A stretch of DNA of 56,356 nt from Candidatus Shapirobacteria bacterium (GCA_028704635.1 JAQWFB010000003.1:1-56356); one strand, 5' to 3'; shown: positions 9,763-41,582, counted from the stretch's first letter. Translations and numbers: made by a program. Notes: generated from the sequence alone by a model not told the origin.

Positions 9763-10015
9763 TTTTTATTAAAATGATTAAAATCCACAAAGCAGATATT
9801 GTTAAAAGTGATTCAGGTATAAACCAAGCTTTTTGGTCGTTAATGCCATAAAAATTTAAAGCCACATTTATGCAATAAGATAGACTTATTACAAAAAAAG
9901 GCAAAAAAATTACCATTTTTTTCGAACAAATAATATTCAGAGAGGCGATCCACATTAATATAATTGCTGCCATCAACACCATAGCTATCGTTAAAAAATT
10001 TAAAAATATCGTCAT
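9752..10015 (-). CDS. Three-TM small membrane protein of the sensor module (1b)
   Basis: 87 aa with about three TM segments. It is a paralogue of the 88-aa protein at 13857-14123: IMWIASLNIICSKK / VIFLPFFVISLSYC aligns with LIWLSSQAMVEKK / VIIPFVPFFMIGLAYC. The ATG overlaps the stop of the 613-aa Cache protein by 4 nt. Unknown family. Its consistent placement directly after a Cache protein in both sub-modules suggests direct partnership. Confidence 0.75.
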   Translation of the reverse strand: MTIFLNFLTIAMVLMAAIILMWIASLNIICSKKMVIFLPFFVISLSYCINVALNFYGINDQKAWFIPESLLTISALWILIILIKNDV

Positions 10016-11853
10016 AATTTCATTTCCTTTTTAAATCCATAAAAAATTAAAAACAAACCCACAAATCCCACCATTCCCACCGGTAACCAAAAATAAAGCG
10101 GAAGAGTTTCGAAATTATTATTGTATTCTTCAAAAAAAATTTGGATTAACTTATCAAGTATAACCAGAACCGATCCCCATGGAATTAATTTTTTCGCAAT
10201 ATCATTTTTTAATTTAAACGTATAAAAAAATAAATTAATTAAAATCATTATTATTACTAAATCGGGAATATCATTATAAAATGCCGCTTTTTTCCAACCT
10301 TGGAAAAATGAAGTTATAAAAAGGAAATAACCAATTGTAAAAATTAAAGAAAATAAAACAGCATATCTAATTTTTAGCTTTATAAAAAAATTCTCAATTT
10401 TTGATATTTTTTTTATTTTTTCTTTTTCCATTAATTCTATTTCTTTTCTAATGGTCATTAAAAAACCAATCAAAGAAAATAATAAAAAAATTATTATTGA
10501 TGCAAATAATTCCTTATTAAAAGATATATCCAAAACTTCACTCTCTTTAATTTCCGTTATCAAACACCAAGGCAATCCAGTGATTAAAGAATTTGTAGCA
10601 ATAGTTCTTTCATTATTATAATTAATTAAAATATTTGTTGTTGGGTTTTTTATTCCAGAAAAACAATTACGGATATTGTCTGTATCAATAGTTTGAACAA
10701 ACATATCAAAAGAACTATTCCTCAGCGGGCTAATCAGTAGTTTTTGATCACGACTTACTAAATAACTCTCTCCAGTTTCACCTAAATTTTCTTTATCTCC
10801 AGTTATTCCAAAAATAACATTCATATTTTTAATTAAAGCCACATATCCTAGTAATTTATTTTGGTCATATATTGGCAATAATACTAAAAATTCTGGATAA
10901 ACTTCACTATAATAATCAATATAAGCATCAGAAAATAAAATTTCTTTATTATTTTTTTCTTCAATAAATTTTTTTGTTAAATACCAATCTTGATTAACTG
11001 GCCAATTAAGATTTGAACCAACCTTTTCTTTAATTGTATTTGTATATACAACATAACCATCAGGATTTATTAAAAATAAATTATTAAAATCTTTCTTATT
11101 AACATTTTCTTCAAAAAACTTTAAATTCAAATCAGCCACTTCTTTGATCATTTTATAATTATCAATAGCAGCCGCTACTACCACTGTTAAATCAACTCCA
11201 TCACCAGTTTTTGTTTCTATGTGGGTTATTCGTAAATATTTTCTTATTATTTTTTTATTTTTTTGACTAAAATCATAAAAACCATAAATATTTTGATTAT
11301 TTTTTATACCCTCAACAATCAATTTATAAAGTTCTGGAGAATTATATATATCCTCATATGTTCTTCCAAAAAATGTGGTTTTTTCATTAAAAAGGGCCAC
11401 TTGTTGTTGGTAATTTTCAATCGAAATATAACCATCTAAACCAATTATTTTACTTTTAATTTTTTGAAAAACAGGATCGTCTTTAAATTCATCAAATTTT
11501 TTATTTGGATTTCTATTAATATAATTTTCTATTTCTTTAATAATAATTCTCGATTCTTCATCAACATTAACTTTCACTATTTCTTCATTGGAAACCAATG
11601 GCTGATTTAATAAATATTTTGCCTCATCCGAATTCGCAATTTTTTTAGCCTCACTTTCCACCATTGAAAAATACGAATCAATTTTATTTTTCTTTAAATC
11701 AGAAACTTCAACTAATTGTTGATGTGTATTTTTTACAATGTTATTTTTTACAAAAGTACAACTTACTAGCCAAAAAAGACCACCCATCAAAACACCAAAA
11801 AAACAAAAAAATATTTTAATTTTTACTTGATTTGAAATTATAATTTTATTCAT
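10012..11853 (-). CDS. dCache-type extracellular sensor protein with multi-TM C-terminus, no output domain
   Basis: 613 aa from the ATG at 11853; the open frame continues upstream, but this start lies 2 nt beyond the preceding stop and precedes the TM. Architecture: TM1 (about 12-33), extracellular double-Cache-like region (about 40-455; marks FLINPDGYVVYTN, KVGSNLNWP, GESYLVSRDQKLLISPL, LPWCLITEI), TM2, a short basic cytoplasmic helix (EKEKIKKISKIENFFIKLK), then four more TM segments. The tail IFFEEY ... FYGFKKEMKL matches that of the 353-aa protein at 14120-15181 (IFFEEY ... FSFKKNLKL). There is no kinase, GGDEF, HAMP or MCP domain. A Cys pair (RNCFSG, WCLITE) is shared with other Cache proteins here. 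Confidence 0.8.
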   Translation of the reverse strand: MNKIIISNQVKIKIFFCFFGVLMGGLFWLVSCTFVKNNIVKNTHQQLVEVSDLKKNKIDSYFSMVESEAKKIANSDEAKYLLNQPLVSNEEIVKVNVDEESRIIIKEIENYINRNPNKKFDEFKDDPVFQKIKSKIIGLDGYISIENYQQQVALFNEKTTFFGRTYEDIYNSPELYKLIVEGIKNNQNIYGFYDFSQKNKKIIRKYLRITHIETKTGDGVDLTVVVAAAIDNYKMIKEVADLNLKFFEENVNKKDFNNLFLINPDGYVVYTNTIKEKVGSNLNWPVNQDWYLTKKFIEEKNNKEILFSDAYIDYYSEVYPEFLVLLPIYDQNKLLGYVALIKNMNVIFGITGDKENLGETGESYLVSRDQKLLISPLRNSSFDMFVQTIDTDNIRNCFSGIKNPTTNILINYNNERTIATNSLITGLPWCLITEIKESEVLDISFNKELFASIIIFLLFSLIGFLMTIRKEIELMEKEKIKKISKIENFFIKLKIRYAVLFSLIFTIGYFLFITSFFQGWKKAAFYNDIPDLVIIMILINLFFYTFKLKNDIAKKLIPWGSVLVILDKLIQIFFEEYNNNFETLPLYFWLPVGMVGFVGLFLIFYGFKKEMKL

Positions 11854-11855
11854 TT

Positions 11856-12887
11856 TTAAAAGATTTTTTTTTCCATTAAAAGTAATATAAAAACAAATCC
11901 TTGAATTAGCATCTGTATAAAAATTGCCCACAAATAATCTTTTTTTTGTTGGGTAAAATCTTTTAAACCATCACTCTTATTAGTCACTGTAATTAATAAC
12001 CATTGATAATCATCTTTAAGATTTTCATTAACCGTTTTTAACCCTTCATATATTTCGAAATTACTTATTGTTGGGTTAATACAACGATAAGTAAAAAATT
12101 GCTCATCAGTTTCTTGGCGTCTCTCATTGCATTTATTAATTAAATCTTTAGAAATCATCGGGTAATCAACAAAAAAATTATTATTTTCATTTTCAGACAA
12201 ATAACCAAATTCTTTATTTTTATCAGGGTTAGCCAAATAAAAACCATTTTTATCAATTAAATAAGTTACTTCTCCTTCCCTTTGCGATCTTCTAATACTA
12301 TCTAAAAAATAATTAGCATAAACTTTAGTCAAAATTATACCTTTCAACTCATTTGTCTTCTGGTCAAAAATTGGAGTTGCATATTTCAATATCGGAATTT
12401 TATTTTCCAAGGTTAAAGGAAAAATATAAACCTCTCCTTTTTTCAAATTTTTTAATAAATCAAAATAAGAACTATCTTGTTGTTTATTATTGGAACCAGA
12501 AATAATTTGACGTTCCTTTCCATCAAACTCAGCTGTTAATAAAACTTTTTTATTACTTACCAGATAACTTATTTGATAATAGGCTTCACTTTGGGTTAAA
12601 AATTCCAAAAAATCTTTTTCAAGATTATTTATTTCAGCCGAACCCGTACTTATTTTTTGGAATTCAGATAATTTACTTAAAAATAATAGATTATCAGCCG
12701 CTCCAGAGGGAAAGTTGTTGACCTCATAATAAGTAGTGTTTAATCTTTGATCAATTATATCCAAAGCATCAGCTTTTATTTTTATATTTTGTTGTTTAGA
12801 TTGTTGATAAAAAAATATTGCGTTAAAAACCACCGATGTTATTAGTAAAATAAAAATCAAAAATAATAACGACTTTTTATTTTTCAT
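11856..12887 (-). CDS. Cache-domain membrane sensor protein, short form
   Basis: 343 aa: N-terminal TM (about 5-27), an extracellular dCache-like region (about 35-310; marks SYLVSNKKVLLTAEFDGK, GEVTYLIDKNGFYLANPDK, YQWLLITVTNKSD) and a C-terminal TM ending in MEKKIF. No cytoplasmic signalling domain. It overlaps the upstream Ig-like gene by 11 nt and lies 2 nt before the 613-aa Cache gene. The two Cache proteins may form a hetero-oligomeric receptor (inference). Confidence 0.78.
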   Translation of the reverse strand: MKNKKSLLFLIFILLITSVVFNAIFFYQQSKQQNIKIKADALDIIDQRLNTTYYEVNNFPSGAADNLLFLSKLSEFQKISTGSAEINNLEKDFLEFLTQSEAYYQISYLVSNKKVLLTAEFDGKERQIISGSNNKQQDSSYFDLLKNLKKGEVYIFPLTLENKIPILKYATPIFDQKTNELKGIILTKVYANYFLDSIRRSQREGEVTYLIDKNGFYLANPDKNKEFGYLSENENNNFFVDYPMISKDLINKCNERRQETDEQFFTYRCINPTISNFEIYEGLKTVNENLKDDYQWLLITVTNKSDGLKDFTQQKKDYLWAIFIQMLIQGFVFILLLMEKKIF

Positions 12888-13392
12888 TTTTTTTCCTCAT
12901 TCTAGAAATCATCCAAAATTCAATAATCACCAAAACATCAACTATTCCTATTGCCACCCCTAAAATATAAATATATTTCATTAAATCCGCCTTGCCTTTA
13001 ACCACTCTAAAATTAGCCGAAACTTCTTCATTTAAATTTTGATAATCTTGAACCTTATTGGCAATTGTATAAGTTCCTACTTCCAAGGATTCCGGTATTG
13101 TCATGTAATCCATAAATGAAGATTGAGTTTCAATCGCTTTAAGAACCTTACTTTCACTAATAATTTCATCGCCTTTTTTAATTTGATAAGTTAATCGCAA
13201 ATCTTTTCGACTTGGGTTTTCTGGATATTTCACCTCCAATTCAAAAGTCAGCCGATCACCCGCCGTTACTTCTAAATATTTTTCTGGGATATGAATAACT
13301 AAATTTAATGCTAAAACAGATTTGCTTATTACAAATACCGCTACTATTAATCCAAAAATCCATATTAATCCAAATATAATTTTATTATTCAT
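12877..13392 (-). CDS. Single-pass Ig-like surface protein, module 1a
   Basis: 171 aa: signal peptide (to about residue 29), beta-sandwich domain, C-terminal TM (YILGVAIGIVDVLVIIEFWM) and basic tail. Clear paralogue of 8805-9305: VKYPENPSRKDLRLTYQIKKG, VLKAIETQSSF, IPESLEVGTY, QDYQNLNEEV. Its ATG overlaps the preceding gene by 8 nt. Unknown family; see the domain-sharing finding. Confidence 0.8.
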   Translation of the reverse strand: MNNKIIFGLIWIFGLIVAVFVISKSVLALNLVIHIPEKYLEVTAGDRLTFELEVKYPENPSRKDLRLTYQIKKGDEIISESKVLKAIETQSSFMDYMTIPESLEVGTYTIANKVQDYQNLNEEVSANFRVVKGKADLMKYIYILGVAIGIVDVLVIIEFWMISRMRKKNEK

Positions 13393-13870
13393 ATTCAGGT
13401 TCGTTTTGAAATTTAATCAACACTGTTAAGGTTAAAAAATGTAAATCAATTACTGTTAATAAAGATAAAAACCCTGCTAATAACATCAATAAATTATTTC
13501 CAGTAATAACTTGAATAATAAAAACTATAAAATTTACAATTATCAATCCTATGGCTATTGAAATTGCCATTAATCTAACAAATTGTCGAAAAACTGAAAA
13601 TAATCGAACATAAAGCCAAATTACTAATATATTTATAGTGGCAAAAATAGAGACATCAATCATTCCTGGCCATCTAAAAAGAATAATAAAACCATAAGCT
13701 AATAATGAAATTATTGAAAAAATAGTTAAACTAAAAAACATTGATAATAGTATTTTTAATTCCTTATATTTAAATTGAAACGATAATAATATTCCAAATA
13801 AAGTAGTTAAAATAATTCCACTTCCTAAAAATAAAGATATTATTACAGCATCCAAATTAGTCAGAAACAT
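13385..13870 (-). CDS. Five-TM small membrane protein of the sensor module (1a)
   Basis: 161 aa, five predicted TM segments (for example IISLFLGSGIILTTLFGILL and LMAISIAIGLIIVNFIVFII). Positional counterpart of 9295-9762. Overlaps its neighbours by 14 nt upstream and 8 nt downstream. No catalytic motif; unknown function. Confidence 0.75.
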   Translation of the reverse strand: MFLTNLDAVIISLFLGSGIILTTLFGILLSFQFKYKELKILLSMFFSLTIFSIISLLAYGFIILFRWPGMIDVSIFATINILVIWLYVRLFSVFRQFVRLMAISIAIGLIIVNFIVFIIQVITGNNLLMLLAGFLSLLTVIDLHFLTLTVLIKFQNEPEYE

Positions 13871-14123
13871 ATTTTTTTATAGTGAACACAAATAACCCAA
13901 AGCTGATTAATAAAAATAAATTTTTAAAAAACCAAAAAATATTAGTCAAAAGAAAATAAAAAGAAAATACTGAAGTAAAACAATAAGCCAGTCCAATCAT
14001 AAAAAAGGGGACAAAGGGGATTATCACTTTCTTTTCCACCATCGCTTGTGACGATAACCAAATCAACCATACTGCCAGCATTAAATCCAAAAAACTTCCT
14101 AAATTTAATAATAAATCACTCAT
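13857..14123 (-). CDS. Three-TM small membrane protein of the sensor module (1a)
   Basis: 88 aa, about three TM segments; paralogue of 9752-10015 (shared KK.VI.PF.PFF.IGLAYC-type core). The ATG overlaps the stop of the 353-aa Cache-like gene as ATGA. Function unknown. Confidence 0.75.
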   Translation of the reverse strand: MSDLLLNLGSFLDLMLAVWLIWLSSQAMVEKKVIIPFVPFFMIGLAYCFTSVFSFYFLLTNIFWFFKNLFLLISFGLFVFTIKKYVSD

Positions 14124-15181
14124 AATTTTAAATTTTTCTTAAAACTAAAAAATAAAGATAAAAATCCTGTAATACTTAAAATCCGCATTAAAACTAAGAT
14201 TAAATTTCTCCAAACACTTGGTAAAGCATATGCTTGTCTGTATTCTTCAAAAAATATAGTTAATAAAAAATAAATCCCCAAAAACAACGCTCCAATTTTA
14301 AAATCATTTCCCTTTTTAAGAGGTATCATCACAATTAATAGGAAAAAAGAAAGTGTCGCCATTCCCCATTCCAAAAAATATGTTTCTAATGAAAAATAAT
14401 TAACTCCTCTGGTCGCCAAAGTTACAATGAAACAATAAGAAATTCCAGCTGCACCGCAAAGAATAAATAGTAACATTTCTTCTATGCTAAAAGATGAAGA
14501 AAAACTAGAAAAATATCCGCTTAAAAAAGTAATTGCTAAAACAAAAAGCATTCCCCAAAAAATATATCGTTTAAGGATTTGTTGTGCTGGTATATCAATA
14601 TTTGTTACCTTTTCTGTTTCTGAGAATAAACATAAGGGCAAACTATCCGAAACCTTTTGATATGTCCCATAAACAGATCTATTTCCTTCATCGATTCCAG
14701 TATAAAATTTTCGACTAAAATTATTCTCATTAAGACATTGATCAAGAAGTTCATTTCGAATAATTTTAGTTGTTGTTCGTTCACTACTGATATCAAATTC
14801 TTTTTGGGCTGTTAATAAAGCCCCTTTATCATTTACCAAATAAGCATTAAGACGAAGTGTTTTTTGTTGCTCCACATATAATAATTTTCTTAAATCATCC
14901 ATGGAAATCGCTTGTCCTTCGCTTGTTATATCAATAGTACTAACTGTTTCTTCATTTTCCACAAATGCTAACGGTTCATTTTTATTAGCTAAAAATTGAG
15001 AAACAGAATTTTCTTTTTCATTAGAAAAATTTGTCAAAGTTTTTTCAACTTGATCAAGTAATTTAGCGTAATCTTGGGTAAAAAAAAATTGAATACTTAT
15101 CACCGCAATCACCAATGCTACTGCAAAAGAAGTTATTGTAAAAAATTGTGATTCACTTATTTTTTGAAATGTTTTTTTCAT
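14120..15181 (-). CDS. Single-Cache-like membrane sensor with multi-TM C-terminus
   Basis: 353 aa from the ATG at 15181, which overlaps the stop of the beta-helix gene as ATGA (a longer frame reaches 15217 but is less plausible). TM1 (about 12-31), a short extracellular alpha/beta domain (LNAYLVNDKGALLTAQKE, LPLCLFSETEKV) and then six TM segments ending IFFEEY ... FSFKKNLKL. The membrane part is homologous to the C-terminal part of the 613-aa protein. Cys residues in DQCLNE and PLCLFSE correspond to the pair in the larger protein. No cytoplasmic enzymatic domain. Confidence 0.75.
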   Translation of the reverse strand: MKKTFQKISESQFFTITSFAVALVIAVISIQFFFTQDYAKLLDQVEKTLTNFSNEKENSVSQFLANKNEPLAFVENEETVSTIDITSEGQAISMDDLRKLLYVEQQKTLRLNAYLVNDKGALLTAQKEFDISSERTTTKIIRNELLDQCLNENNFSRKFYTGIDEGNRSVYGTYQKVSDSLPLCLFSETEKVTNIDIPAQQILKRYIFWGMLFVLAITFLSGYFSSFSSSFSIEEMLLFILCGAAGISYCFIVTLATRGVNYFSLETYFLEWGMATLSFFLLIVMIPLKKGNDFKIGALFLGIYFLLTIFFEEYRQAYALPSVWRNLILVLMRILSITGFLSLFFSFKKNLKL

Positions 15182-18132
15182 TTCTTTTTCCTTTTTCCCA
15201 TCAACCCAATAATCCAAGAAATTAAAATTAATACTATTCCAGATCCAATACCAATCATCAATGGTTTGTTTGATAAGAAATTAGTTAATGGAGAAGTAAT
15301 AACAGTTTCACTAATTTCAAATGGTTGTTTAAATTCATCTCTAATATTAGTGTTATAAAGAGTGTTTAATACTAATGTGTATTTACCTTTGTCTAATAAC
15401 AATCCTTCAAATGTTTTATTAAAGACTCCTTCTGTTTGTATTGTTGTATTGTCAACCGATCTATAATATTCTTTTCCATTTGCATCAACTATAGTAAATG
15501 TCATTTCTACTGGGGTATCTTTATTACCAAAACTAACAAATGTTACTCTAGCAGTTAATTCAGATACATTAGTAATTTGTGGCTTATCTACAATTAGGGC
15601 GATATCAAAAAGTTCAGAGGGGATTTGAGAAACAGGCACAAATCCTTCAGCTGGAGTAGTTGTCGTTGTTCTGCCAGTAGTGGCTGTAGTTGTTTCTATT
15701 ACTCTTCCTCTTGGTGTTGCCGATACCTCATTTGACCAATCACCTGGCATACAATCATTAATAGCTTTTATCTTAAAGTAATATCTAGTTCCACCAGATA
15801 ATCCTTTGATTGTATAACTAGTAGTATCGGCATTACCTACATTTGGATTACCATATTCAATTGATCCAGAAGAAGTTCCATAAGCTACCAAATAATGAGT
15901 AAAGGGATTACTTGCTTTTGACCAAGTTAAAGTAATACTATTATCTCCATTTACTGTATTAGTAATAGTTGGTGCACTTCCTGGTTTAGTTGCAGTACAG
16001 GCTGGTGCTGCCCAACCAGTAGAGGTGGTAGAAGTTGAAGTTGACGAAGGGGAGGAGGTTGGTGTTGGTGTAGGTGTTGGAGTAGGAGTAATTACAGCCG
16101 AACTAAAAGTTACAAATTTAGTAAAATGTCTCGTCCAAACTACCAAATCATCACCCACATCAATTTTACATTCTTCATCTACCCCCAATGTCGCACCAGA
16201 ATCACTCCCACATGTCGTTATAATTTCAGTAAAGGATATTCCACTTCTAAGATATCCTACTCTATTTCCCTCTTGATTTGGAAATAAAATTCTTACTGCT
16301 TTATCAAAAGATAACTTAACATCAGTCACTCCAACGTCAATTGCTGTTTCCACAGTTCTTGTTTCACCTGAAACCTCAGGGATAGTCGTTGATATTGCTG
16401 TTGGAGCCAACATCATTCCATCCCAACCAGTATCTGTACTTGATATTGACGTTGAAGCCTGAATAGATATTCCTACACCACTAACATTATTTGCCACAAT
16501 ATTTACCTCTGGTAATGTTCCTGACCCACTGGAAATAAACCCACTAAAATCAATTGTTGGACTGGTTATTCCACTATTTATTGTAATAAAAGCTGGTGTA
16601 GTTGAATTTGTAATTACGGCTAAATATCGATTATTACTGCTGATTGTGGCGGTACCACCCACTTGATTAACCACTAAGTAATTTCTTGAATTTTCAATGT
16701 AATATGGAATAATAGTTGCGTTTCCATAAATTAATGATTTTGCCACCTGATAATTTTTACTTCCCCACCAATTATTTATTGCACTTACTGTATTTGCAGT
16801 ATTATTCCGTAAATTATAACTAGTATTACTAAATATCAAATTTTCAGTTATATCGTATCCACCAATTGAAGTTCCCACATCCAAAAAAATTCCTTTATCC
16901 CATCCGGAAATATTATTTCCTGTTATCGATGTTATCACCGCCCCACCACCCAGATCAAAAATAGCGGATGAATTACTAGTCCCATCACCAGTTAAAGTAT
17001 TTTCCAAAACACTCACTCCAACAGTATGGCTATTTGGAGTAAATCCCTCCAAACTAATACCACCACGAGGAAAACCACTCCCAATTGTATTTAAATATAG
17101 TGTTGAATTGCTAATATTTGCCTGTTCATTATCTAAATAAATTCCTGTTCCATAAGTATGTCCCGAACCAGAAATGTCATTATTTTGAATAGTTATTTCA
17201 GAACTATTTCTATTAGTAATTCCAAAATCACAATTAATAATTGTATTATTTTCAATCACCGCCCCATTCTTAATATTTATTACTTCTATTGCCGAATCCC
17301 AATCTGTTGTGTTGTAGTGTAGGTCGCTAATAACATTATTAGAAATTGCCGTAACTGTTACTCCATCATTTACTTTAATTCCATCTTGTCGCCTTGTCGT
17401 TAAAATTCCATCACCATTAATCACATTATTGTGAATATTTGCCGTTATATTTGTGGTTGTTTCTCCAATTTGAATTCCATTACTCAAAAAATTAGAGGCA
17501 GTACAACCACTAATTTCCACTGTTTTTGCCGAAGTAGTATTAGCATCTACCCAAAAAGCATGTATCCCTTTTTTCCATGTTTCCGAACCACTCGGTATTA
17601 CTACATGATCATTATGTATACTACTAACATTCTCAATTACTCCGCTAGTGTTATAAAAAAAGACTCCTCCAAAACGCATATCGGGTATTGTTGAACCAAA
17701 CCAATCCGCTCTGTCAGTCGACAAGGAAGACGCATCTACCTTTAAATTTTCCACTGTCACCGTGTCACCTATATCATTAACCACAATTATTCCTGTTGTT
17801 GTTCCAGATGGTGTTGTTACATATACATCTAATGATGTTGGTTTAATAATTGTCGTCCCTCCAGTTCCATTTAATACTATCGATTTAGTAATATTGACTT
17901 GCTCCGTATATTCGCCTGCTGCCACATTAACAGTGTCGCCATCAACAACTCTAGTATCACCTATTGCATACTGAATAGTTTGAAAAGCATCTGTTCCACT
18001 TGCAGTTCCATGAGATCCATCATCAGTTCCTGTTGAGTCAACATAATAATCAGTTGCCAATATTTGGATTGGCTTTATTAATAAAACCAATCCAAATAAA
18101 CCTATTACAATATATTTCCTAATCACATACAC
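15178..18132 (-). CDS. Secreted beta-helix/FN3 surface protein with C-terminal membrane anchor, module 1
   Basis: 984 aa, GTG start (the nearest ATG runs straight into TGA). Domains in order: signal peptide (to about 27); right-handed beta-helix/NosD-type repeats (about 28-460; YYVDSTGTDDGS, DTVNVAAGEYTEQVNI, many NNxI turns, ending NNWWGS); beta domain with VDEECKIDVGDDLVVWTRHF; (TP)n linker; fibronectin type III domain (about 710-810); an Ig-like domain resembling the small Ig proteins of the locus; TM (about 955-977) and a GKRKKK tail. First gene of the minus-strand sensor locus. Its FN3 region is almost identical in DNA to the plus-strand protein at 36433-39987. Likely a carbohydrate-binding surface receptor or adhesin. 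Confidence 0.82.
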   Translation of the reverse strand: MYVIRKYIVIGLFGLVLLIKPIQILATDYYVDSTGTDDGSHGTASGTDAFQTIQYAIGDTRVVDGDTVNVAAGEYTEQVNITKSIVLNGTGGTTIIKPTSLDVYVTTPSGTTTGIIVVNDIGDTVTVENLKVDASSLSTDRADWFGSTIPDMRFGGVFFYNTSGVIENVSSIHNDHVVIPSGSETWKKGIHAFWVDANTTSAKTVEISGCTASNFLSNGIQIGETTTNITANIHNNVINGDGILTTRRQDGIKVNDGVTVTAISNNVISDLHYNTTDWDSAIEVINIKNGAVIENNTIINCDFGITNRNSSEITIQNNDISGSGHTYGTGIYLDNEQANISNSTLYLNTIGSGFPRGGISLEGFTPNSHTVGVSVLENTLTGDGTSNSSAIFDLGGGAVITSITGNNISGWDKGIFLDVGTSIGGYDITENLIFSNTSYNLRNNTANTVSAINNWWGSKNYQVAKSLIYGNATIIPYYIENSRNYLVVNQVGGTATISSNNRYLAVITNSTTPAFITINSGITSPTIDFSGFISSGSGTLPEVNIVANNVSGVGISIQASTSISSTDTGWDGMMLAPTAISTTIPEVSGETRTVETAIDVGVTDVKLSFDKAVRILFPNQEGNRVGYLRSGISFTEIITTCGSDSGATLGVDEECKIDVGDDLVVWTRHFTKFVTFSSAVITPTPTPTPTPTSSPSSTSTSTTSTGWAAPACTATKPGSAPTITNTVNGDNSITLTWSKASNPFTHYLVAYGTSSGSIEYGNPNVGNADTTSYTIKGLSGGTRYYFKIKAINDCMPGDWSNEVSATPRGRVIETTTATTGRTTTTTPAEGFVPVSQIPSELFDIALIVDKPQITNVSELTARVTFVSFGNKDTPVEMTFTIVDANGKEYYRSVDNTTIQTEGVFNKTFEGLLLDKGKYTLVLNTLYNTNIRDEFKQPFEISETVITSPLTNFLSNKPLMIGIGSGIVLILISWIIGLMGKRKKK
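15694..16025 (-). repeat. 332-bp FN3-encoding inverted repeat, copy 1
   Basis: Reverse complement of 39167-39498 without indels; I count about eight base differences. It encodes the Cys-linked FN3 domain beginning at TGWAAPACTATKPGSAPTI. The matching region continues less strictly into the preceding VDEECKIDVG domain. Confidence 0.88.
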
Positions 18133-18207: not shown

Positions 18208-20034
18208 TTAGTATCCGCCTATAAACTTCATCGTTTCCGCCTGTTCCTCTATTGCTTTTTTAGCTGCTTGTTCCGGGTTTTCTAATATCGATAAAAGTAA
18301 TTCTGGTTTTTCAACCAATTTAATTTTAGCCATATTTTTTCTGGCTTTATTTATATTTTTTAAAATAATATTCGAAACTTCAATTAAAACTTCCTTCCAA
18401 AATATTTCTTTAAATTTTTTTTTATTGGCTGTTTTTTTAAAAATTTCTATTGCCACTGGATTAATAAATCCTTTTTTTAAATCATCTTCCCAATCATGAG
18501 CATCATCATTTAATTGTCTGGCAATCAGATAATTTTTAAAAAATTTCCAAAGATTTTTAACCTCAGGTGAATTTTTATCAAAACCCAATGAATACAAAAT
18601 CGCCATTGGCCCCAACGCATGGCCTAAAGATTTTTTTGCTAATTGCGAATAATCAACATAATTAGGCAATTTTTTATCATCATAGCAATTAACAACTTCC
18701 CAGTAATTAGCCGCATCAATTTCATCCATCGTTTTATTAAACACATCGGCAAAATCTGTTTTTGGCAAAATACTATTATATATCAGCGCCAATTCTCTCA
18801 AACATACATTCGCCATCGACAATGTTTTTTTGTCTCCATCACCATCTAAAAAATCATCATAAATCGTATACGCAATCCAACCATAAAGATTAGCCAATCC
18901 ACATCGAACAATTAATTTTTTTGATACTTTTGCCCCATTTTTTCCCAAAGACTTATAAAAAATATATGGCAATAAAGTAATACTTTTTTTACAATTTCTT
19001 TCTGGTATTTTGGACAAAAATTTTGTTCGATTATTAGCGATTTGTAGTATTTCTTGGTGAATTTCATCAGCCACTTTATCCTTTTTTTGAACAAGATTAG
19101 ACACAGTTTTTAAAAAATATTTATTTAATGCTTCAACACAAAAAGCTGTTGTCAGAGCCATTGAGCCAGCATAATAAGTTTCTCTGTTTATTGCCGGATC
19201 AATACAAAAAGCACTTGTCTTCCAAGAACCATTTTTTTTCTGATTCTTAATCAAATAATTAATACTCGATCGCACCTTTTTTGGATCCATTCCTAAATTT
19301 AAAAGGGCACTGATCGCCAGGGCTGTATCCAATGGATTTCCCCAATTGTCATCATTTTTCTTCATTAAAATTATTTTCACTAATTTTTTACATTCTGTTT
19401 TGCCGAAAAAAAATCTAGAGATAAAATAAACAATCGGATAAATTGACGGATAATAAGGCGATATTAAATCTTTTTTTTCAATTGCCAATTTAATTAATTT
19501 ATTAATATTTTCTAACTCAATTTCTTGTAATGACAAAAAATAACCTATATTACTATTTACTGCCAAATCAACATCTTTCCATGCTTCATCCACACTTTCC
19601 GAAACCAGCCAAGTTTTATATGGGCCACCTTCTTTTTTTTCCATCGTCGTCAATAACGTCACAATTTTAGCCATTGCCGCTCCGTCAATTAACTTTGAAT
19701 CATATTTATAAATTCCACTCAAAGCACAAAAAGTATCATCCAAATCATCGGGATAGGGCATTCTTTTACTTTCTTTTGCCTGGCGTTTCCAGTAATTAAA
19801 TGACCAATAATCACTTTTTTGAGATAAAAGAAAATCAACTAACTTCTTTTTAATTTTTTCTGACTTTTCTATCGAATCTAAGCAAGATAAAATTAAAACT
19901 GATGGAAAAATAGAATTATATTTTTTAGCCTTATCAAAATTATTTCTATCTAGACTCGACCAACTCCAAAAACCATCATCTTTTTTCTGTTGACTTTTAA
20001 TAAAACTAATTGCTCTATTTATATTTTTTTTCAT
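18208..20034 (-). CDS. Putative bifunctional terpene cyclase (class II DLDD plus class I DDFLD domains)
   Basis: 608 aa. The N-terminal half (about 1-320) has alpha/alpha-barrel QW-type repeats (QQKKDDGFWSW, NQKKNGSWKTS) and the class II protonation motif DLDD at 97-100. The C-terminal half (about 375-600) is all-helical, with DDFLD at 393-397 and NDDAHDWEDD at 509-518, resembling the DDxxD and NSE/DTE metal-binding motifs of class I terpenoid synthases. The combination resembles bifunctional diterpene synthases. It overlaps the histidine-kinase gene by 20 nt, so expression is tied to the two-component system. No prenyl-diphosphate synthase is in the window. Alternative: a prenyltransferase-fold protein with degenerate activity. 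Fold assignment fairly sure, product unknown. Confidence 0.7.
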   Translation of the reverse strand: MKKNINRAISFIKSQQKKDDGFWSWSSLDRNNFDKAKKYNSIFPSVLILSCLDSIEKSEKIKKKLVDFLLSQKSDYWSFNYWKRQAKESKRMPYPDDLDDTFCALSGIYKYDSKLIDGAAMAKIVTLLTTMEKKEGGPYKTWLVSESVDEAWKDVDLAVNSNIGYFLSLQEIELENINKLIKLAIEKKDLISPYYPSIYPIVYFISRFFFGKTECKKLVKIILMKKNDDNWGNPLDTALAISALLNLGMDPKKVRSSINYLIKNQKKNGSWKTSAFCIDPAINRETYYAGSMALTTAFCVEALNKYFLKTVSNLVQKKDKVADEIHQEILQIANNRTKFLSKIPERNCKKSITLLPYIFYKSLGKNGAKVSKKLIVRCGLANLYGWIAYTIYDDFLDGDGDKKTLSMANVCLRELALIYNSILPKTDFADVFNKTMDEIDAANYWEVVNCYDDKKLPNYVDYSQLAKKSLGHALGPMAILYSLGFDKNSPEVKNLWKFFKNYLIARQLNDDAHDWEDDLKKGFINPVAIEIFKKTANKKKFKEIFWKEVLIEVSNIILKNINKARKNMAKIKLVEKPELLLSILENPEQAAKKAIEEQAETMKFIGGY

Positions 20035-21398
20035 CAGGCTTCATTTTAATCGGAAATTTAATTGTAAATAATGTTCCCTTTTTTAATTTACTTTCCACCT
20101 CAATTTTCCCACCAAATTCTTTTTCCACAATAGTTTTAGTTATATAAAGTCCAATTCCAGTACCTCGCTTAGTGTCTTTAGTTGTAAACAACGGATCAAA
20201 AATTTTTTGTTTAGTTTCTTCATCAATACCGCAACCAAAATCCTCAACTATTAATATTACTTCGCTTCCATTAGTGTCTAATTTAATATTAATTTTTCTA
20301 TTTTCTTTTCTCTTTATTTCATAATATGAATCAATTGCATTAGAAATTAAATTACTGACCAATTGATAAAATCTAAGTGAATTACCAAAAGTACAAATTT
20401 TTTTATTACCAATAATATTAACTTGAATTTTCATTTCTTTAGCTTTATATTCAAAATTTTCCATCACTGTTTCAATTTCTACCCATGGCTCATAAATACA
20501 ATTCGTTTCTTGTTGTTGAACTTGTTTTCTCACTGACACAATCAACTTTTCCATTTGTCTAGTTCCTTTAATTGCTCTCCTAACAACTGGGTCAATTTTA
20601 TTTAATTCAGACGATATTTTATTTTTTGTTTGTAATTCTATATTACTTAAACTTAAAGATACTTGAGTTAATGGATTAACAATATCATGAAACATTCCCG
20701 CCGTTAATCGTCCAAAATCAGCAAATTTATATAAATTTACCATTCTTTCTAATTGAACTTTTTTTAGTTCCTTTGTTCTTTTTTCAACTTCAATTTCCAA
20801 GTTATCCCGCTCTTTTTTTAAATCATTTTCCGATTTTTTCGCCCGTTTTAACGCTTTTTCAATTTCTCTATTATACAACCAAGAAACAATAGCAATTATA
20901 AGAAGTGTAAAAATGGCTACTAATATTGACCCAATCATTGGTGATTGATCCCAAGTTTGATATTTTAATATTCCATTTTTTTGTAAACAAGTTAATAATA
21001 ATAAAACAATTCCATGAATAATTACTAAAAAAAAGGAAAAATTTGATCCAATCAAAATTCCACCAACTACTATGGTAAGTGCCAACAAAATCCAAGCCTG
21101 GGGAATAATTGTACCAAAACGAAATTCGAGATAATGTGCTGATAACGATAAAGCCATTATTATTATCAATGACGATAATTCTAAAAAAAAGACCTTTTAT
21201 TGTAAAAAAATTCAACCACCAAAAAACAACCAAAATCACCAATGGAAGAATTTTATTTAACGAATCAGCTGTTGTATTAAAATTTGGAGAAAAAACATTA
21301 ATAAGCGTAGTCCAAAAAGAAAGAAACAAAATCCCGTTTAAAACCACTTTCAATACTAATATTTTTTCGTTTTCTTCTTTTGTGGTTACAAACCTCAC
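20015..21398 (-). pseudogene. Six-TM sensor histidine kinase split by a homopolymer frameshift
   Basis: The N-terminal frame (GTG at 21398, MRFVTTKEENEKIL) encodes two TM segments and runs to the A8 run at 21183-21190 (T8 on the coding strand). The kinase frame (ATG at 21157-21169, through 20015) begins just after it with the remaining TM segments. Seven T residues would join them into one protein of about 460 aa. Kinase parts: coiled coil (about 100-140 of the downstream frame), H161 in GMFHDIVNPLT, N-box NLISNAIDS, G1 DFGCGID, G2 GTGIGLYI. Possible readings: sequencing error, true pseudogene, phase variation or transcriptional slippage. The downstream part alone still has three to four TM segments plus a complete kinase core and could be translated from 21169. 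Encoded between the 37-aa peptide and the terpene cyclase. Confidence 0.8.
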
Positions 21399-21582: not shown

Positions 21583-22251
21583 TCAAGCAGTTATTTTATA
21601 TCCTAAACTATGAACCGACTTAATCATTTTAATTCCAAACTGTCGGTCGATCTTGTTTCTTAAATAATTAATATGAACATCAACTGTATTAGTCAATTGA
21701 TTTGTATCACTTTCCCACACATGTTCCAAAATCATACTTCTCGTCAATACCTTACCAGCGTTACGCATCAAATACTCCAATAATCTAAATTCTTTTAATC
21801 TAAGCTCAATTTTGTCTCCCTTATATTCAGCTGTATTGGAAATTGTATCTAAAATTAAACCATTTACAGACAATCTATCAGACGAAAAACCATTAGGAGC
21901 TCGTCTTATTAAAGCTTGCAATCTGGCATGAAGCTCTTCAAAACTAAACGGTTTAGTTAAATAATCATCTGCTCCTAAATTAAGAGCATTAATTTTATCT
22001 CTGGTTTCCGATTTTCCTGTCAACATTATAATCGGTGTTTTAATCTCACCTTCTCTAATATTTCGGCAAACTTGAAATCCATCAATATCAGGCAAAACCA
22101 CATCCAGCACTATTGCATCATAATCATTATCAAACACTAATTCTTCTCCTTTTTGTCCAGTAAAAGCAATGTCGATTGCATAATAAACTTTTAACATTTC
22201 CTTAATCGAACTTGCCGTTTGTCTTTCATCCTCAATTAACAAAATTTTCAT
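21583..22251 (-). CDS. OmpR/PhoB-family response regulator
   Basis: 222 aa. Receiver domain (1-118) with acidic pocket IEDE, phospho-acceptor D50 in IVLDVVLPD, LTGKSE switch region and K in YLTKPFSF. C-terminal winged helix (about 128-222) with the RLKEFRLLEYLMRNAGKVLTRSMILEHVW and VHINYLRNKI motifs. Natural partner of the downstream kinase, separated by the 37-aa peptide gene. Probably controls the terpene-cyclase operon and possibly its own. No confident operator was found upstream. Confidence 0.93.
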   Translation of the reverse strand: MKILLIEDERQTASSIKEMLKVYYAIDIAFTGQKGEELVFDNDYDAIVLDVVLPDIDGFQVCRNIREGEIKTPIIMLTGKSETRDKINALNLGADDYLTKPFSFEELHARLQALIRRAPNGFSSDRLSVNGLILDTISNTAEYKGDKIELRLKEFRLLEYLMRNAGKVLTRSMILEHVWESDTNQLTNTVDVHINYLRNKIDRQFGIKMIKSVHSLGYKITA

Positions 22252-36432: not shown

Positions 36433-39400
36433 ATGAATAGAAAGATATTTTTATTTATATATGTTTTTTTAGTATTGCCTTTGTCATTTTTATTCCTTTT
36501 TAAAAAAACATATGCAGCTATTAGTTGGACCGATGATTTTAATAGTGGAAATAAAAATACTTGGATAAATATAGATGGAGGAGATAATAGTACTCATCTT
36601 TTTCAGAATAATAAATATGAATTACATACTGAAAGTAACAATGGTTCGGCTAAATCATTAGCAAGTTATGTTAATCAAACTAACGATAATTCAATTGTTC
36701 AAACCAGAGTACAGAAAATAAATTCTGGTGATAATTTTTTAACTTATCTTCTCTTAAGGATTAACCCCACCACCATGAGTGGTTATACCTGTGGCGTTAG
36801 TTCTGATGGAACCAACCATTTTTGGTTCGGTAAACTAACCAATGGAGTCTATTCCAATTTAACCACTACTGGAACAGCAACATATAATTCGAACGATTTT
36901 AAATTTCGTTGTGCTGCTATTGGCAGTAGTCTTGTAGCCAAAGTTTGGAATGCTTCAGATTCAGAGCCTTCCAGTTGGCAGATCAGTTCCACTGATAATA
37001 GCTACACAAGTGGATCAAATGGTGTGATGTTGGCTACTTATCCCATACTTGGCTGGAATACTGTTCAAGTAGCTGTTGATGATTTTTCCACACAAGGATT
37101 ATCCAAATCTGAAGTTTGGGTAGACGACAATTGGGTTGGAACTTCAGCCAATACTGAAGTTGAGTCGGGAAAAATTTTTGGATATAACGCTTTTGCCACA
37201 ATTCAATCCGGTGTCAGTGCGGTTGATGTTGAAGGAACCGTTAATGTAGCAGCAGGAGAATATAACGAAAATTTAACCATCACTAAGGCTGTTAATATTA
37301 TTGGAGCCAATAAAGATACAACTATCATTAAAGGAGTAAGCGGTAAAACCAGAGTTCTTTCTGTCAATGATGTTAGCACCACTATGAGCGTTCGTGGTTT
37401 TACCATAAATGCAGCCAATTGTGACTCTCCTAAACGAGGAATGCAATCAGTCTTGTCGAGTAATGTCACTTTCGAAGGAAATAAAATAATAAATATCGGC
37501 GATATGGGTATTTGGACCAGATCGGGTAATATTATTAAAAATAATAATATAAATTGTGATATTGGAACTAGTTTTGGAGGGATTTATATAGACGGTGCAG
37601 GCAATACTATCTCAGATAACACTATTAATAGTGTTACCACAAATAGTGGTATATCAATAAATGGTTCAAATAATTTTATCAAAAGTAATAACATTCAATG
37701 CTCAATTGAAGATTCTTTTGCTGGTTGTATATACATCAGCGGTATAGACAACATTTTAGATAGTAACACAATTACTGGATTTACTGGTTCTGCTTATGCT
37801 ATTTTTTCATATGGTGGAACAGCACCTGTTAATCAAAATAATACTTTTAAAAGAAACACTTTTATTGCTAATAACGCCGATGGTAGTGGTGGTGGAATTT
37901 ATTTATACAACTCGGGTGGTAATATTATTGGCGGTACCTTGCCCGAGGATGGTAATAGCTTCATTTTAAAACCAGATTCAAAAAAATCACCTTCGTATGG
38001 CTATGGCATAGACATTATTTCTTACCCTGATGGATACACAGCCAGTAACACTATTCAAAATAATAAATTTGATGGTGGTAATCGAGTTTTAGAGGTAGAA
38101 GGTTTTGTTGGTGGAACAACAACTTTTTCCAACAATATTGTTGGAGCCACCACTCCACCAAGCAATTATGGTGTTATCTTTAGTGGGGGAAGCGCCATTA
38201 TTTCCGGCAATACTTTTCACAATATCTCTACTCCAATTTTTTTTAGTAGATCTGGTGGTGTAGCAGAAATGAATATTTCTATTACTAATAATATTTTTGA
38301 TGATGGAGCTGATACTTATGCCGCAATTTTAGCTTCAAATTTTACTTCACTTGTGGTTAATGAAAATAGTTTTGATTTAAAGAGTAATAGAATAGCATTA
38401 AACAATCAAGGTGGAAACGTTGATGCTACTAATAATTGGTGGGGAAGTGCCTCTTTAAAAAAAATTAAATCTAAAATTCTAGGTAACGTTATTTTTACCC
38501 CTTATTATGTTAATTCTAAAAAAACATCATTAGTTGCTAGTATTATTCATGGAGCGGCCACCATTAATAATAATAAACCGCAAGTTTTAATTAACGATTC
38601 TACTTTGCCGGTAACTATTACTGTTGAAAGTGGAACAACTAACCCCACTTTAGATGTCAGTTCTTTAATTACTAATAATTCTGGAACATTACCTCAAATC
38701 ACTATAAATACAAATTCGGCTAATATTTCCATCCCTGAATCAACTACTATTACCAGTGACGACGAAAATTGGGATGGAATAATTAAAGCACCAACTGTTA
38801 CTACTATTACTCTCCCTGAAACTTCTGGTGAAACAAAAACCTTAGGTATGGCAATTGAAGTTGGACTTGGTGATACTAAATTAACTTTTGATAAAGCAGT
38901 AAAAATAGATTTTCCCGGTGAGGTAGGTAAAAGAGTGGGTTTTTCAAGAAATGATGTTTTTACTGAAATTACAACAATATGCAGTAGTGATTCTGGTGCG
39001 ACTTTAGGGGTAGATGAAGAATGTAAAATTGATGTGGGTAACGATTTAGTGGTATGGACGAGACATTTTACAAAATTTATTGTTTTCAGTTCTGTTTCAA
39101 CCTCAACTCCAACTCCAACACCTACTCCAACACCTACTTCCTCCTCTAGTACTTCAACCTCTACAACCTCTACTGGTTGGGCAGCACCAGCCTGTACTGC
39201 AACTAAACCAGGAAGTGCACCAACTATTACTAATACAGTAAATGGAGATAATAGTATTACTTTAACTTGGTCAAAAGCAAGTAATCCATTTACTCATTAT
39301 TTAGTAGCTTATGGAACTTCTTCTGGATCAATTGAATATGGTAATCCAAACGTAGGAAATGCTGATACCACTAGTTATACAATCAGAGGATTATCTGGTG

Positions 39401-39987
39401 GAACTAGATATTACTTTAAGATAAAAGCTATTAATGACTGTATGCCAGGTGATTGGTCAAATGAGGTATCGGCAACACCAAGAGGAAGAGTAATAGAAGC
39501 TATGACTACTACTAGTGGTGAAACAACAACTACACCGGCTGAGGGATTTGTACCGACATCAGAAATCCCTGGAAATTTATTTGATATTAAATTGACTATC
39601 GATAGTGCAATTTTAAATAAATCAAATGAGTTAGTTTCAAGAGTATCCTTTACTAATTTTGGTAGTTTGCCAACATTGGCTAAGCTTGTTTATAAAATTT
39701 TAGACGAAAATGGAAAAATTATTTTTACTGAAAATGGAGAAGTAACCGTTGAAACAGAAAATACATTAGTTAAAGAATTTAAAAATTTTGAGGCAGGAAA
39801 CGGAAAATATACTCTAATTTTGGAGACTATTTATGGAGATAATGTAAAAGATGAATTTAGACAGAGTTTTGAAATTAAAGAAGTGGTGAGCACACAAAAC
39901 AGATGGATAGTTTTGGTTTTGGGGATATTTGTTGGAATAATTGGAATTGTAATCTATAAATTATCTAAGGCTCGCAAACATAAATAA
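36433..39987 (+). CDS. Secreted beta-helix/FN3 surface protein with C-terminal membrane anchor, module 2
   Basis: 1184 aa. Signal peptide (to about 28), LamG/concanavalin-like sandwich (about 30-215: WTDDFNSGNKNTW ... WNTVQVAVDDF), a VWVDDNW linker, right-handed beta-helix repeats (about 250-680; GTVNVAAGEYNENLTI to NNWWGSASLKK), beta domain with VDEECKIDVGNDLVVWTRHF, (TP)n linker, FN3 domain, Ig-like domain, TM (about 1155-1175) and a KARKHK tail. Paralogue of 15178-18132 with an extra N-terminal lectin-like domain. Followed 1 nt later by a Cache protein and then an Ig-like protein, the same order as the minus-strand module. Confidence 0.82.
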   Translation: MNRKIFLFIYVFLVLPLSFLFLFKKTYAAISWTDDFNSGNKNTWINIDGGDNSTHLFQNNKYELHTESNNGSAKSLASYVNQTNDNSIVQTRVQKINSGDNFLTYLLLRINPTTMSGYTCGVSSDGTNHFWFGKLTNGVYSNLTTTGTATYNSNDFKFRCAAIGSSLVAKVWNASDSEPSSWQISSTDNSYTSGSNGVMLATYPILGWNTVQVAVDDFSTQGLSKSEVWVDDNWVGTSANTEVESGKIFGYNAFATIQSGVSAVDVEGTVNVAAGEYNENLTITKAVNIIGANKDTTIIKGVSGKTRVLSVNDVSTTMSVRGFTINAANCDSPKRGMQSVLSSNVTFEGNKIINIGDMGIWTRSGNIIKNNNINCDIGTSFGGIYIDGAGNTISDNTINSVTTNSGISINGSNNFIKSNNIQCSIEDSFAGCIYISGIDNILDSNTITGFTGSAYAIFSYGGTAPVNQNNTFKRNTFIANNADGSGGGIYLYNSGGNIIGGTLPEDGNSFILKPDSKKSPSYGYGIDIISYPDGYTASNTIQNNKFDGGNRVLEVEGFVGGTTTFSNNIVGATTPPSNYGVIFSGGSAIISGNTFHNISTPIFFSRSGGVAEMNISITNNIFDDGADTYAAILASNFTSLVVNENSFDLKSNRIALNNQGGNVDATNNWWGSASLKKIKSKILGNVIFTPYYVNSKKTSLVASIIHGAATINNNKPQVLINDSTLPVTITVESGTTNPTLDVSSLITNNSGTLPQITINTNSANISIPESTTITSDDENWDGIIKAPTVTTITLPETSGETKTLGMAIEVGLGDTKLTFDKAVKIDFPGEVGKRVGFSRNDVFTEITTICSSDSGATLGVDEECKIDVGNDLVVWTRHFTKFIVFSSVSTSTPTPTPTPTPTSSSSTSTSTTSTGWAAPACTATKPGSAPTITNTVNGDNSITLTWSKASNPFTHYLVAYGTSSGSIEYGNPNVGNADTTSYTIRGLSGGTRYYFKIKAINDCMPGDWSNEVSATPRGRVIEAMTTTSGETTTTPAEGFVPTSEIPGNLFDIKLTIDSAILNKSNELVSRVSFTNFGSLPTLAKLVYKILDENGKIIFTENGEVTVETENTLVKEFKNFEAGNGKYTLILETIYGDNVKDEFRQSFEIKEVVSTQNRWIVLVLGIFVGIIGIVIYKLSKARKHK
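39167..39498 (+). repeat. 332-bp FN3-encoding inverted repeat, copy 2
   Basis: Reverse complement of 15694-16025 with no indel and about eight differences by eye. Recombination between the copies would invert roughly 23 kb carrying the terpene, toxin-antitoxin and protease genes. Confidence 0.88.
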
Positions 39988-39988
39988 A

Positions 39989-40927
39989 GTGAAAAAAGTT
40001 TCTATTAGAAATATTTTTGGACTATTGGCAGGCGTGATTTTTATTTTACTAGTTGTTGAGGGAATTTATTTAGTTCAAGTTGGGATGTTGGTTGATGCTC
40101 GGCATAAAAGTTTGCAAATTACTGCAGATAATAAAGCACTGTTGATTGATACTTATTTAAATGAGGAAAAGCAAAAAATAATCTACATATCATCATTAAA
40201 AGAGTTTAAAAATGTTGCCTTGAATCCTAATAATAAACAAACGATAGCAATAGCAAAAAAGAAAATTGATGAATTAAATAGTTTCTTTCCAGGAATCTGT
40301 ATTACAGATAATAAGGGAATTGTAATTGTGGCAAAAAATGATTTGCCAGGAATGAATTATGGAAACCAGAAATATTATTCTCTTGAAAATAAAAAGATTG
40401 TTTTTGAACCTTATTATGACACTATTAGAAAAAATAATTATTTGGCAGTTGTAAGCCCTATTTACAATAATGATGTGATAAAAGATAAAATAATTGGCAC
40501 AATTGTTTTTGATTTGGATTTTGAAACAATAACAGGATTAATGAAAGTATCAATTGATAATAACAGTGAAGAGGCGTATTTAATTGATGAATCGGGTTTG
40601 TTTTTAAGTGGTTCAAAATATATTGGTGGTGGAAATAAAGATGGAATTTTAATTCAAGAAGCTAAAAGTGATGGAGCAAAAGCATGTTTGGATGATTTGA
40701 AAAAATATCAAAAAAGTAATGGTGATATTGAGGACCATGAAGAAAAAATAATTCCATATTTAAATTATATTGGTGAAGATGTTTTTGGAACTCATACTTA
40801 TCTTAAGACCATGACTGGTTGTGTTATAGCGGAAGAAAAGGTAGCTGAAGTAGCTAAATTTCCTTCTGTAAAAGACATTATTGATATTTTTAAAAATGTA
40901 TTTTATTTATTACTGAATAATAAATAA
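39989..40927 (+). CDS. Cache-domain membrane sensor protein, module 2
   Basis: 312 aa, GTG start 1 nt after the upstream stop. TM1 (about 8-30), extracellular dCache-like region (ITADNKALLIDTYLNEEKQKI, GICITDNKGIVIVAKN, NYLAVVSPIYNND, EEAYLIDESGLFLSG). A Cys pair (KACLDDL, TGCVIAEE) matches that in the minus-strand Cache proteins. The C-terminus is an amphipathic or weak membrane helix (IIDIFKNVFYLLLNNK) and there is no output domain. The 87/155-aa-type small proteins are absent from this copy. Confidence 0.78.
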   Translation: MKKVSIRNIFGLLAGVIFILLVVEGIYLVQVGMLVDARHKSLQITADNKALLIDTYLNEEKQKIIYISSLKEFKNVALNPNNKQTIAIAKKKIDELNSFFPGICITDNKGIVIVAKNDLPGMNYGNQKYYSLENKKIVFEPYYDTIRKNNYLAVVSPIYNNDVIKDKIIGTIVFDLDFETITGLMKVSIDNNSEEAYLIDESGLFLSGSKYIGGGNKDGILIQEAKSDGAKACLDDLKKYQKSNGDIEDHEEKIIPYLNYIGEDVFGTHTYLKTMTGCVIAEEKVAEVAKFPSVKDIIDIFKNVFYLLLNNK

Positions 40928-40934
40928 ACAAAAA

Positions 40935-41459
40935 ATGAGGAAGATATATTTAGTGACATTTATTTTAATGTTTTTGGTAGTGTTTCCTAAATCAGTGATG
41001 GCTATGAACATTACTATCGGGGTGTCAGATAAATATTCAGAGGTAAATGCAGGTGAAAAAATATATTTTGAAACTGAAATTAAATGGCCAGAAAATGTTG
41101 ATAGAAAAGACTTAAAGATGGAATATTTTATTACAGATAATAATGGAAAAGAAATAGCTTATCTTAAAGTGTTAAAGGCAGTTACAACACAAGCGATTTT
41201 TTCGGATTCAATATTAATTCCAGAAGGTACTCCAAAAGGAATGTATAAAATTAGTCTAAAAATTAATGACTATAAAGAACTTAATCAAGATGCGGTGGTT
41301 AGTTTTAATGTGATAAAAACTGTTAATAAAAATACTTTAATTCTTTATATTATTGTTGGACAGTTTATTTTGACTTTATTTTATGTTGTGTTTGAATTAC
41401 CATTTTTAATTAAGAGACTTAAATCATTTATTAATTTATCTTTGAATACAAAGAAATAA
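40935..41459 (+). CDS. Single-pass Ig-like surface protein, module 2
   Basis: 174 aa: signal peptide (to about 24), Ig-like domain and C-terminal TM (TLILYIIVGQFILTLFYVVF). Third member of the family: DKYSEVNAGEKIYFETEIKWPENVDRKDLKMEYF, VLKAVTTQAIF, NDYKELNQDAVVSF. Ends the plus-strand module; 7 nt after the Cache gene. Confidence 0.8.
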   Translation: MRKIYLVTFILMFLVVFPKSVMAMNITIGVSDKYSEVNAGEKIYFETEIKWPENVDRKDLKMEYFITDNNGKEIAYLKVLKAVTTQAIFSDSILIPEGTPKGMYKISLKINDYKELNQDAVVSFNVIKTVNKNTLILYIIVGQFILTLFYVVFELPFLIKRLKSFINLSLNTKK

Positions 41460-41582
41460 CTGAACAAAATTTTGAAATCAGTGAAACAATAAAGACTTCT
41501 TTATTAACTAATTTTTTATTCCTTGGACAGTTGGAGTGGTAAGAAAAAATAATATAAAGGTAATGTGAGTTCAAAATTTCTT

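Follow-up and report, generated by a model that had tools for sequence, protein, structure and literature searches.

A 56,356-nucleotide stretch of DNA from a Candidatus Shapirobacteria bacterium (GCA_028704635.1 JAQWFB010000003.1:1-56356; hereafter the window), contig C3 of the 1.0 Mb genome G000 (96% complete), carries at positions 36433-41459 a trio of genes encoding a beta-helix display protein (BH2), a Cache-domain sensor (Ca2) and an immunoglobulin-like membrane protein (Ig2). The genome is read as patescibacterial from its 1 Mb size, its bacterial genes and phylum-mates such as G067. A preliminary description had interpreted this locus as an inverted, reduced copy of a larger locus on the minus strand at 8.8-18.1 kb of the same window. 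Gene trees reject that origin: the trio is a separate, co-inherited lineage, the closest kin of all three proteins being found in trio-type loci of another family of Patescibacteria (genome G067) and of an archaeon (G430). As to function, the domain content and the gene neighborhoods point most readily to a split, trans-acting extracellular receptor, an assignment that stands about an equal chance of being right or wrong. The three plus-strand genes noted in the preliminary description proved to be tightly packed open reading frames (ORFs), with intergenic gaps of 1 nt and 7 nt:

36433..39987, plus strand: BH2, display protein (PF13229, PF00041; local Ig-B hidden Markov model (HMM), 181 bits)
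39989..40927, plus strand: Ca2, dCache sensor (PF02743; transmembrane (TM) scan; ortholog L058_13, 43% identity)
40935..41459, plus strand: Ig2, Ig-A family (AlphaFold2 model; foldseek; Ig-A HMM)

The beta-helix, Cache and Ig-like assignments made earlier hold for the three proteins on the strength of PF13229 and fn3 matches, the dCache_1 profile and the AlphaFold2 fold, respectively. BH2 consists of a signal peptide, an N-terminal domain of ~200 amino acids (aa), a beta-helix (PF13229, E 5.5e-9), fn3 (1e-12), an Ig-B domain (aa ~1039-1148), a C-terminal membrane helix and a short basic tail. The N-terminal domain, previously described as a gained lectin-like domain, is indeed an extra portion of BH2, which may reflect either gain or loss, but its designation as a lectin was dropped, since comparison with Pfam (no match at E 10) and the Protein Data Bank (PDB; no meaningful match) yielded no carbohydrate-binding family. 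Ca2 matches dCache_1 (PF02743) with an E-value of 7.5e-20 and 72 bits against a curated cut-off of 45. It is anchored by a single N-terminal membrane helix, with its C-terminal end extracellular, and the TM scan found neither a second membrane helix nor a cytoplasmic output domain; Ca2 thus departs from the canonical transmembrane Cache receptor, in which the ectodomain lies between two TM helices and is followed by a cytoplasmic output. Amino-acid-binding dCache domains (dCache_1AA) carry the ligand motif RxWY...D, and in the alignment the Ca2 segment expected to hold RxWY reads NQKYY. Ig2 comprises a signal peptide, an E-set beta sandwich, a membrane helix and a ~20-aa cytoplasmic tail. Its AlphaFold2 model (pLDDT 88) shows the beta sandwich and one long C-terminal membrane helix, with CARDB, MG2 and E-set folds as the nearest PDB matches in foldseek (E about 1e-5 to 1e-4); the match of the sequence to PF01835 is under cut-off, and the E-set/MG2/CARDB-like Ig fold is assigned from the structure model. 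None of the trio proteins has a match in NCBIfam, which has no name for Ig-A, for Ig-B or for C5TM, 3TM and 5TM, the polytopic families present in the first locus; the Pfam matches of these five families are sub-threshold or isolated and weak.

In phylogenies of the three supposedly paralogous pairs, the trio members are not sisters of the members of the first locus. A phmmer search with Ca2 retrieved L058_13 at 244 bits and L052_9 at 175 bits, the next best match scoring 60, and matched no Cache protein of the first locus. Ca2 forms a clade with its L058 and L052 relatives in the Cache tree (support 100/100), and its union with Ca1c of the first locus is rejected (p~1e-56). In the Ig-A tree, Ig2 groups with L052, L053 and L058 (96/91), and monophyly of the three Ig-A proteins of the window is rejected by the approximately unbiased test (p=0.0007). 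The Ig-B tree places BH1, the beta-helix protein of the first locus, with L013 and L074 (99/97) and BH2 nearest to L058, with support of 77/69 that is not firm; the union of BH1 and BH2 is rejected marginally (p=0.047). All three trio members are therefore nearest to the same foreign loci, L058 and L052, and form with them a trio-only subtype. The three genes thus have a common origin that is distinct from that of the first locus, which also contradicts the possibility that the trio was assembled from genes of unrelated descent. Strong Ca2-type dCache matches were found only in G000 and G067 among 380 Patescibacteria and only in G430 among 371 archaea, adjoining Ig-A in each of the three genomes. 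The trio was most likely acquired from, or exchanged with, DPANN archaea, independently of the first locus. Misbinning of an archaeal contig was ruled out, the window's tRNA synthetase being 77-82% identical to those of same-genus genomes, and carriage by viruses was likewise set aside, as viral contigs and phage records yielded no relatives of Ig-A. An empty-site comparison through the neighboring UvrD gene was uninformative because relatives carry only paralogs of 35-40% identity.

The resemblance that invited the duplication hypothesis, in which the 8.8-18.1 kb locus was duplicated in inverted orientation and the duplicate lost the polytopic genes, is real in several respects. The two loci share the order Ig-B/beta-helix, Cache, Ig-A, as the preliminary description had noted; BH1 and BH2 are 57% identical over the C-terminal half of the proteins and 84% identical in DNA over 795 bp (blastn); and the DNA directly 3' of Ig2 holds what is left of an Ig-B tail of the BH1 type. 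The two relevant features are as follows:

39133..39492, plus strand: homogenised fn3 tract (matches 16062-15700 of the first locus; codon-aligned sliding identity)
41462..41518, plus strand: remnant of a BH1-type Ig-B C-terminus (blastn 79% over 57 bp, E 2.6e-8; tblastn E 3e-4)

Similarity at the DNA level is highest in the fn3 tract, where ~120 codons are 95-98% identical in codon-aligned sliding windows; identity is intermediate (about 70-85%) just upstream of the tract and falls to about 47-60% across Ig-B and the beta-helix. High identity confined to the tract, with divergent flanks, is what conversion predicts and argues for recombination or gene conversion between the inverted loci and not for recent duplication. 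Recent paralogy of the whole BH1 and BH2 genes was rejected on this ground, and the tail remnant reads as another trace of rearrangement. With all three gene trees placing the trio members with other genomes, duplication is very improbable. A subtilase at 28469-32728 also contains several fn3 domains, the last of which is distantly related to those of BH1 and BH2.

Both window loci belong to an apparently undescribed module that is often present in DPANN archaea but seldom in Patescibacteria. Relatives of Ig-A occur in Nanoarchaeota, Woesearchaeota and Pacearchaeota among the DPANN archaea and in single genomes of Moraniibacteriota and Parcubacteria. In the window's order, no genome besides the window's own contains Ig-A (1/44); strong matches are present in 2/380 sampled genomes of its phylum, while matches above 100 bits occur in about ten of the 371 genomes of the archaeal phylum sampled, together with many weaker ones. 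The gene order recurring by local HMMs is Ig-B, Cache(s), C5TM, 3TM, 5TM, Ig-A, with many loci lacking some of the parts. Among 25 Ig-A loci, Ig-B is present in 15 and a Cc-type Cache in 14, whereas Ig-A is present in all by construction, because the loci were collected partly via Ig-A itself; several of the archaeal loci are contig ends, and the gene calls are mechanical ORFs. None of the Ig-A, Ig-B, Cache and polytopic families was found in 40 control regions (663 kb from the same and related genomes), which excludes chance association.

The trio had been proposed as the core unit of the system, with the small polytopic proteins as accessory parts. A search of other genomes indeed recovered trio-type loci without polytopic genes, in Moraniibacteriota (L074: Ig-B, Cache, Ig-A) and Pacearchaeota (L075: Ig-B, Ig-A, Cache), as well as the patescibacterial L058 and the archaeal L052, both with the order Ig-B, dCache, 4-helix bundle, Ig-A. 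The trio as a unit is thereby supported in part; a still smaller core, the pair of Ig-A and Ig-B, is the most constant one and stands alone in L014 and L053. The C5TM/3TM/5TM cassette behaves as optional across loci, in line with an accessory role, and its families are absent from the window trio, as stated earlier. In L052, Ig-B and a Ca2-type dCache are joined in a single chain (L052_9) through a membrane helix, a short basic loop (RQKRFRIGKIRPYKYFKEN) and another membrane helix, followed by the 4-helix-bundle and Ig-A proteins in the order of the window trio. The ligand diversification suggested in the preliminary description is conjectural, although the ectodomain ahead of Ig-B does vary, being a beta-helix in BH2 and a kelch propeller or repeats in L052. 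At L058 in G067, a beta-helix protein is encoded by a separate gene (13461-15143) and has calcium loops of dockerin-like appearance at its end (DINRDGSVDIFD). The Ig-B protein (12398-13450) has, by eye, a cohesin-like domain; neither feature is called by Pfam. These two proteins are possibly a non-covalent version of the BH2 fusion. Another architecture, at L011:11586-13589, combines a Cache ectodomain with about ten transporter-like membrane helices and adjoins Ig-A and Cb.

The sensors of the module typically lack an output. In Ig-A loci, 34/35 Cache proteins have a cytoplasmic tail of <=39 aa or no second TM helix, the single exception residing in a weak Ig-A locus; outside such loci, Ca2-like dCaches are mostly fused in one chain with a histidine kinase (HK), usually beside a response regulator (RR). 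The accessory genes encode further sensor types (SBP_bac_8, Peripla_BP_6, NMT1, ABC_sub_bind and the 4-helix bundle). Of the 25 loci, 5 have kinase, regulator and DUF835/KaiC-like genes next to Ig-A, compared with 1/40 control regions having such genes; in L005, L049, L056 and L063 they form HK-RR-DUF835 cassettes, DUF835 being an inactive KaiC. The control region L116 (G715:C1:1-20000) contains a histidine kinase, a response regulator and an inactive-KaiC-like gene without Ig-A, so the cassette also occurs on its own.

From the output-less sensors, the HK-fused relatives elsewhere, the adjoining kinases and the lack of methyl-accepting chemotaxis protein (MCP) domains (MCPsignal, 0 matches in G000), we infer a receptor split between sensors and a kinase acting in trans. 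BH2 would display its beta-helix ectodomain on the membrane-anchored Ig-B domain, Ca2 would act as the dCache ligand sensor held by its one N-terminal helix, and Ig2 would be the conserved single-pass partner of Ig-B, the three proteins presumably forming one complex; the single chain of Ig-B and dCache in L052_9 speaks for their physical association. Binding of a ligand or a surface would shift Ca2 and the Ig-A/Ig-B sandwiches, and this shift would be transmitted in trans, through Ig-A/Ig-B contacts and the membrane helices, to a histidine kinase on a chain of its own, which in this genome may be that at 20015-21169, with the regulator at 21583-22251. In the first locus, the C5TM/3TM/5TM cassette could then be an alternative, bulkier transducer that is not essential. 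More tentatively, and with a chance somewhat below even, the module may constitute a new class of prokaryotic receptors in DPANN archaea and Patescibacteria, in which exchangeable output-less sensors (dCache, 4-helix bundle and solute-binding folds) would be mounted on a chassis of two E-set proteins, optionally with C5TM/3TM/5TM, and would signal onward to kinases or KaiC-like hubs that are separate from it. Within this class, the trio would be the minimal, independently transferred form.

Several observations weigh against the split receptor. The association with kinases is modest (Fisher p 0.028 by loci), the HMM used to detect them had its seed sequences from the same loci and so favors cases over controls, and there is no kinase within 6 kb of the window trio. 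The unlinked Cache proteins L143 and L144 also lack a fused kinase, L144 having an adjoining one. The locus at 36433-41459 lacks the 4-helix-bundle protein that L058 and L052 have in their trio loci, so the window trio may be incomplete. The correlation of Ig-A and Ig-B tree distances (Mantel r 0.57, p 0.0006 with divergent loci included) drops to r 0.28-0.36 (p 0.04-0.05) without the most divergent loci, and cognate co-evolution of the two families is accordingly suggested, not established.

The main rival, which we consider unlikely, is a surface attachment complex, in which Ig-A/Ig-B would hold BH2 as an adhesin or a fibre that binds glycans, and the dCache would be structural or co-binding. 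The large beta-helix/fn3 ectodomain is typical of adhesins, a kelch ectodomain takes its place in L052, a fibre-like protein is encoded beside the first locus, and the trio has no nearby kinase; this explanation does not account for the recurrence of dCache, 4-helix-bundle and many solute-binding domains, all of ligand-sensing types, nor for the kinase, regulator or KaiC-like neighbors in five loci. The solute-binding domains, twice fused to the p5 membrane family, would also suit a nutrient uptake system with surface binding proteins. ATP-binding cassette (ABC) ATPase-like ORFs are absent among the 328 ORFs near Ig-A, which makes sensing likelier than uptake, and C5TM and s3 match no permease family, the one Pfam match of p5, to SdpI, being weak and isolated; uptake is accordingly improbable. 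Least credible is a set of chemotaxis receptor parts working through a chemosensory array: dCache, matched in Ca2, and 4-helix bundles are common ectodomains of chemoreceptors, but the MCP signaling domain is absent from this 96%-complete genome, and we give this explanation next to no weight.

Most DPANN archaea and Patescibacteria are believed to live attached to other cells, and little is known of how hosts are sensed. If the proposed receptor is real, the module, with its output-less extracellular sensors and its recurrence across two domains of life, would be a candidate for host sensing, with the trio as the smallest form for reconstitution. A Cache-bearing protein with no kinase output of its own that modulates a partner in trans is exemplified by the alpha2-delta subunit of calcium channels; that subunit, however, is eukaryotic and has a VWA domain, and homology is claimed for the Cache domain only. 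The dCache receptor kinases (dCache-HAMP-HK; L137-L140, L142) share with Ca2 the sensor family and membrane-anchored extracellular sensing, whereas the sensors of the module have no kinase or HAMP domain and Ca2 also lacks the second membrane helix. According to Upadhyay et al. 2016 (PMC4822843), all Cache domains identified by then lay in proteins that also have output domains, and they span two membrane helices; the module would challenge the published rule that an output is always present. The two-protein systems LuxP/LuxQ and TorT/TorS have a ligand-binding protein that acts in trans on a kinase (PMC8534201), much as proposed for the trio; unlike these, the trio binders are membrane-anchored and organized around two E-set membrane proteins, and their kinase partner is only a candidate. 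The HK-RR-DUF835 cassettes adjoining Ig-A recall the archaeal two-component/KaiC hubs, a survey of which (PMC5847659) reports no two-component systems in the finished genomes of Nanoarchaeota; for the terms searched, it gives no description of an Ig-A/Ig-B module or of output-less Cache proteins.

The first locus, which has three Cache-type and two Ig-A proteins instead of one of each, and the signaling genes upstream of it are composed as follows:

8805..9305, minus strand: Ig1b, Ig-A family (Ig-A HMM)
9295..9762, minus strand: p5 family, 5 TM helices (local HMMs)
9752..10015, minus strand: s3 family, 3 TM helices (local HMMs)
10012..11931, minus strand: Ca1c, dCache with C5TM membrane domain (PF02743, E 1.3e-9)
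11856..12887, minus strand: Ca1b, output-less sensor of HK_sensor_dom_bact type (PF21623, 3e-12; tail 6 aa)
12877..13392, minus strand: Ig1a, Ig-A family (Ig-A HMM)
13385..13870, minus strand: p5 family, 5-6 TM helices (local HMMs)
13857..14123, minus strand: s3 family, 3 TM helices (local HMMs)
14120..15217, minus strand: Ca1a, remote Cache-like ectodomain with C5TM membrane domain (local HMM C5TM, 139 bits)
15178..18132, minus strand: BH1, beta-helix/fn3/Ig-B protein, Ig-B lineage different from that of BH2 (Ig-B tree)
20015..21169, minus strand: membrane histidine kinase upstream of BH1, putative output partner (PF02518, 1.7e-25)
21583..22251, minus strand: OmpR-type response regulator, putative output partner (PF00072, PF00486)

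The C5TM domain of Ca1c was modeled by AlphaFold2 with a pLDDT of 85, and its fold has no PDB match at E<0.001. Upstream of the start of the histidine kinase, a hydrophobic ORF in another frame (20871-21398) resembles the membrane portion that the kinase lacks at its N-terminus, which suggests a possible frameshift or assembly error in the kinase gene. Overlapping the kinase gene, a 608-aa protein (18208-20034) with weak similarity to toroid terpene cyclases (squalene-hopene cyclase models) contains DLDDT in its N-terminal half and DDFLD and NDDAHDWEDD in its C-terminal half, motifs that make a bifunctional class II and class I terpene synthase possible. The fibre-like surface protein directly downstream of Ig1b (4174-8769) is repetitive, with a 445-bp internal repeat at 99%, and has no Pfam match. 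Beyond the trio, a 92-bp direct repeat (41583-41674 and 44453-44543, 98%) flanks tRNA-Ile and the UvrD-like helicase gene, which has only distant paralogs in the genus, and the 3' end of a large serine recombinase gene (50820-52586) overlaps tRNA-Ser (52518-52605) on the opposite strand, possibly marking an integrated element.

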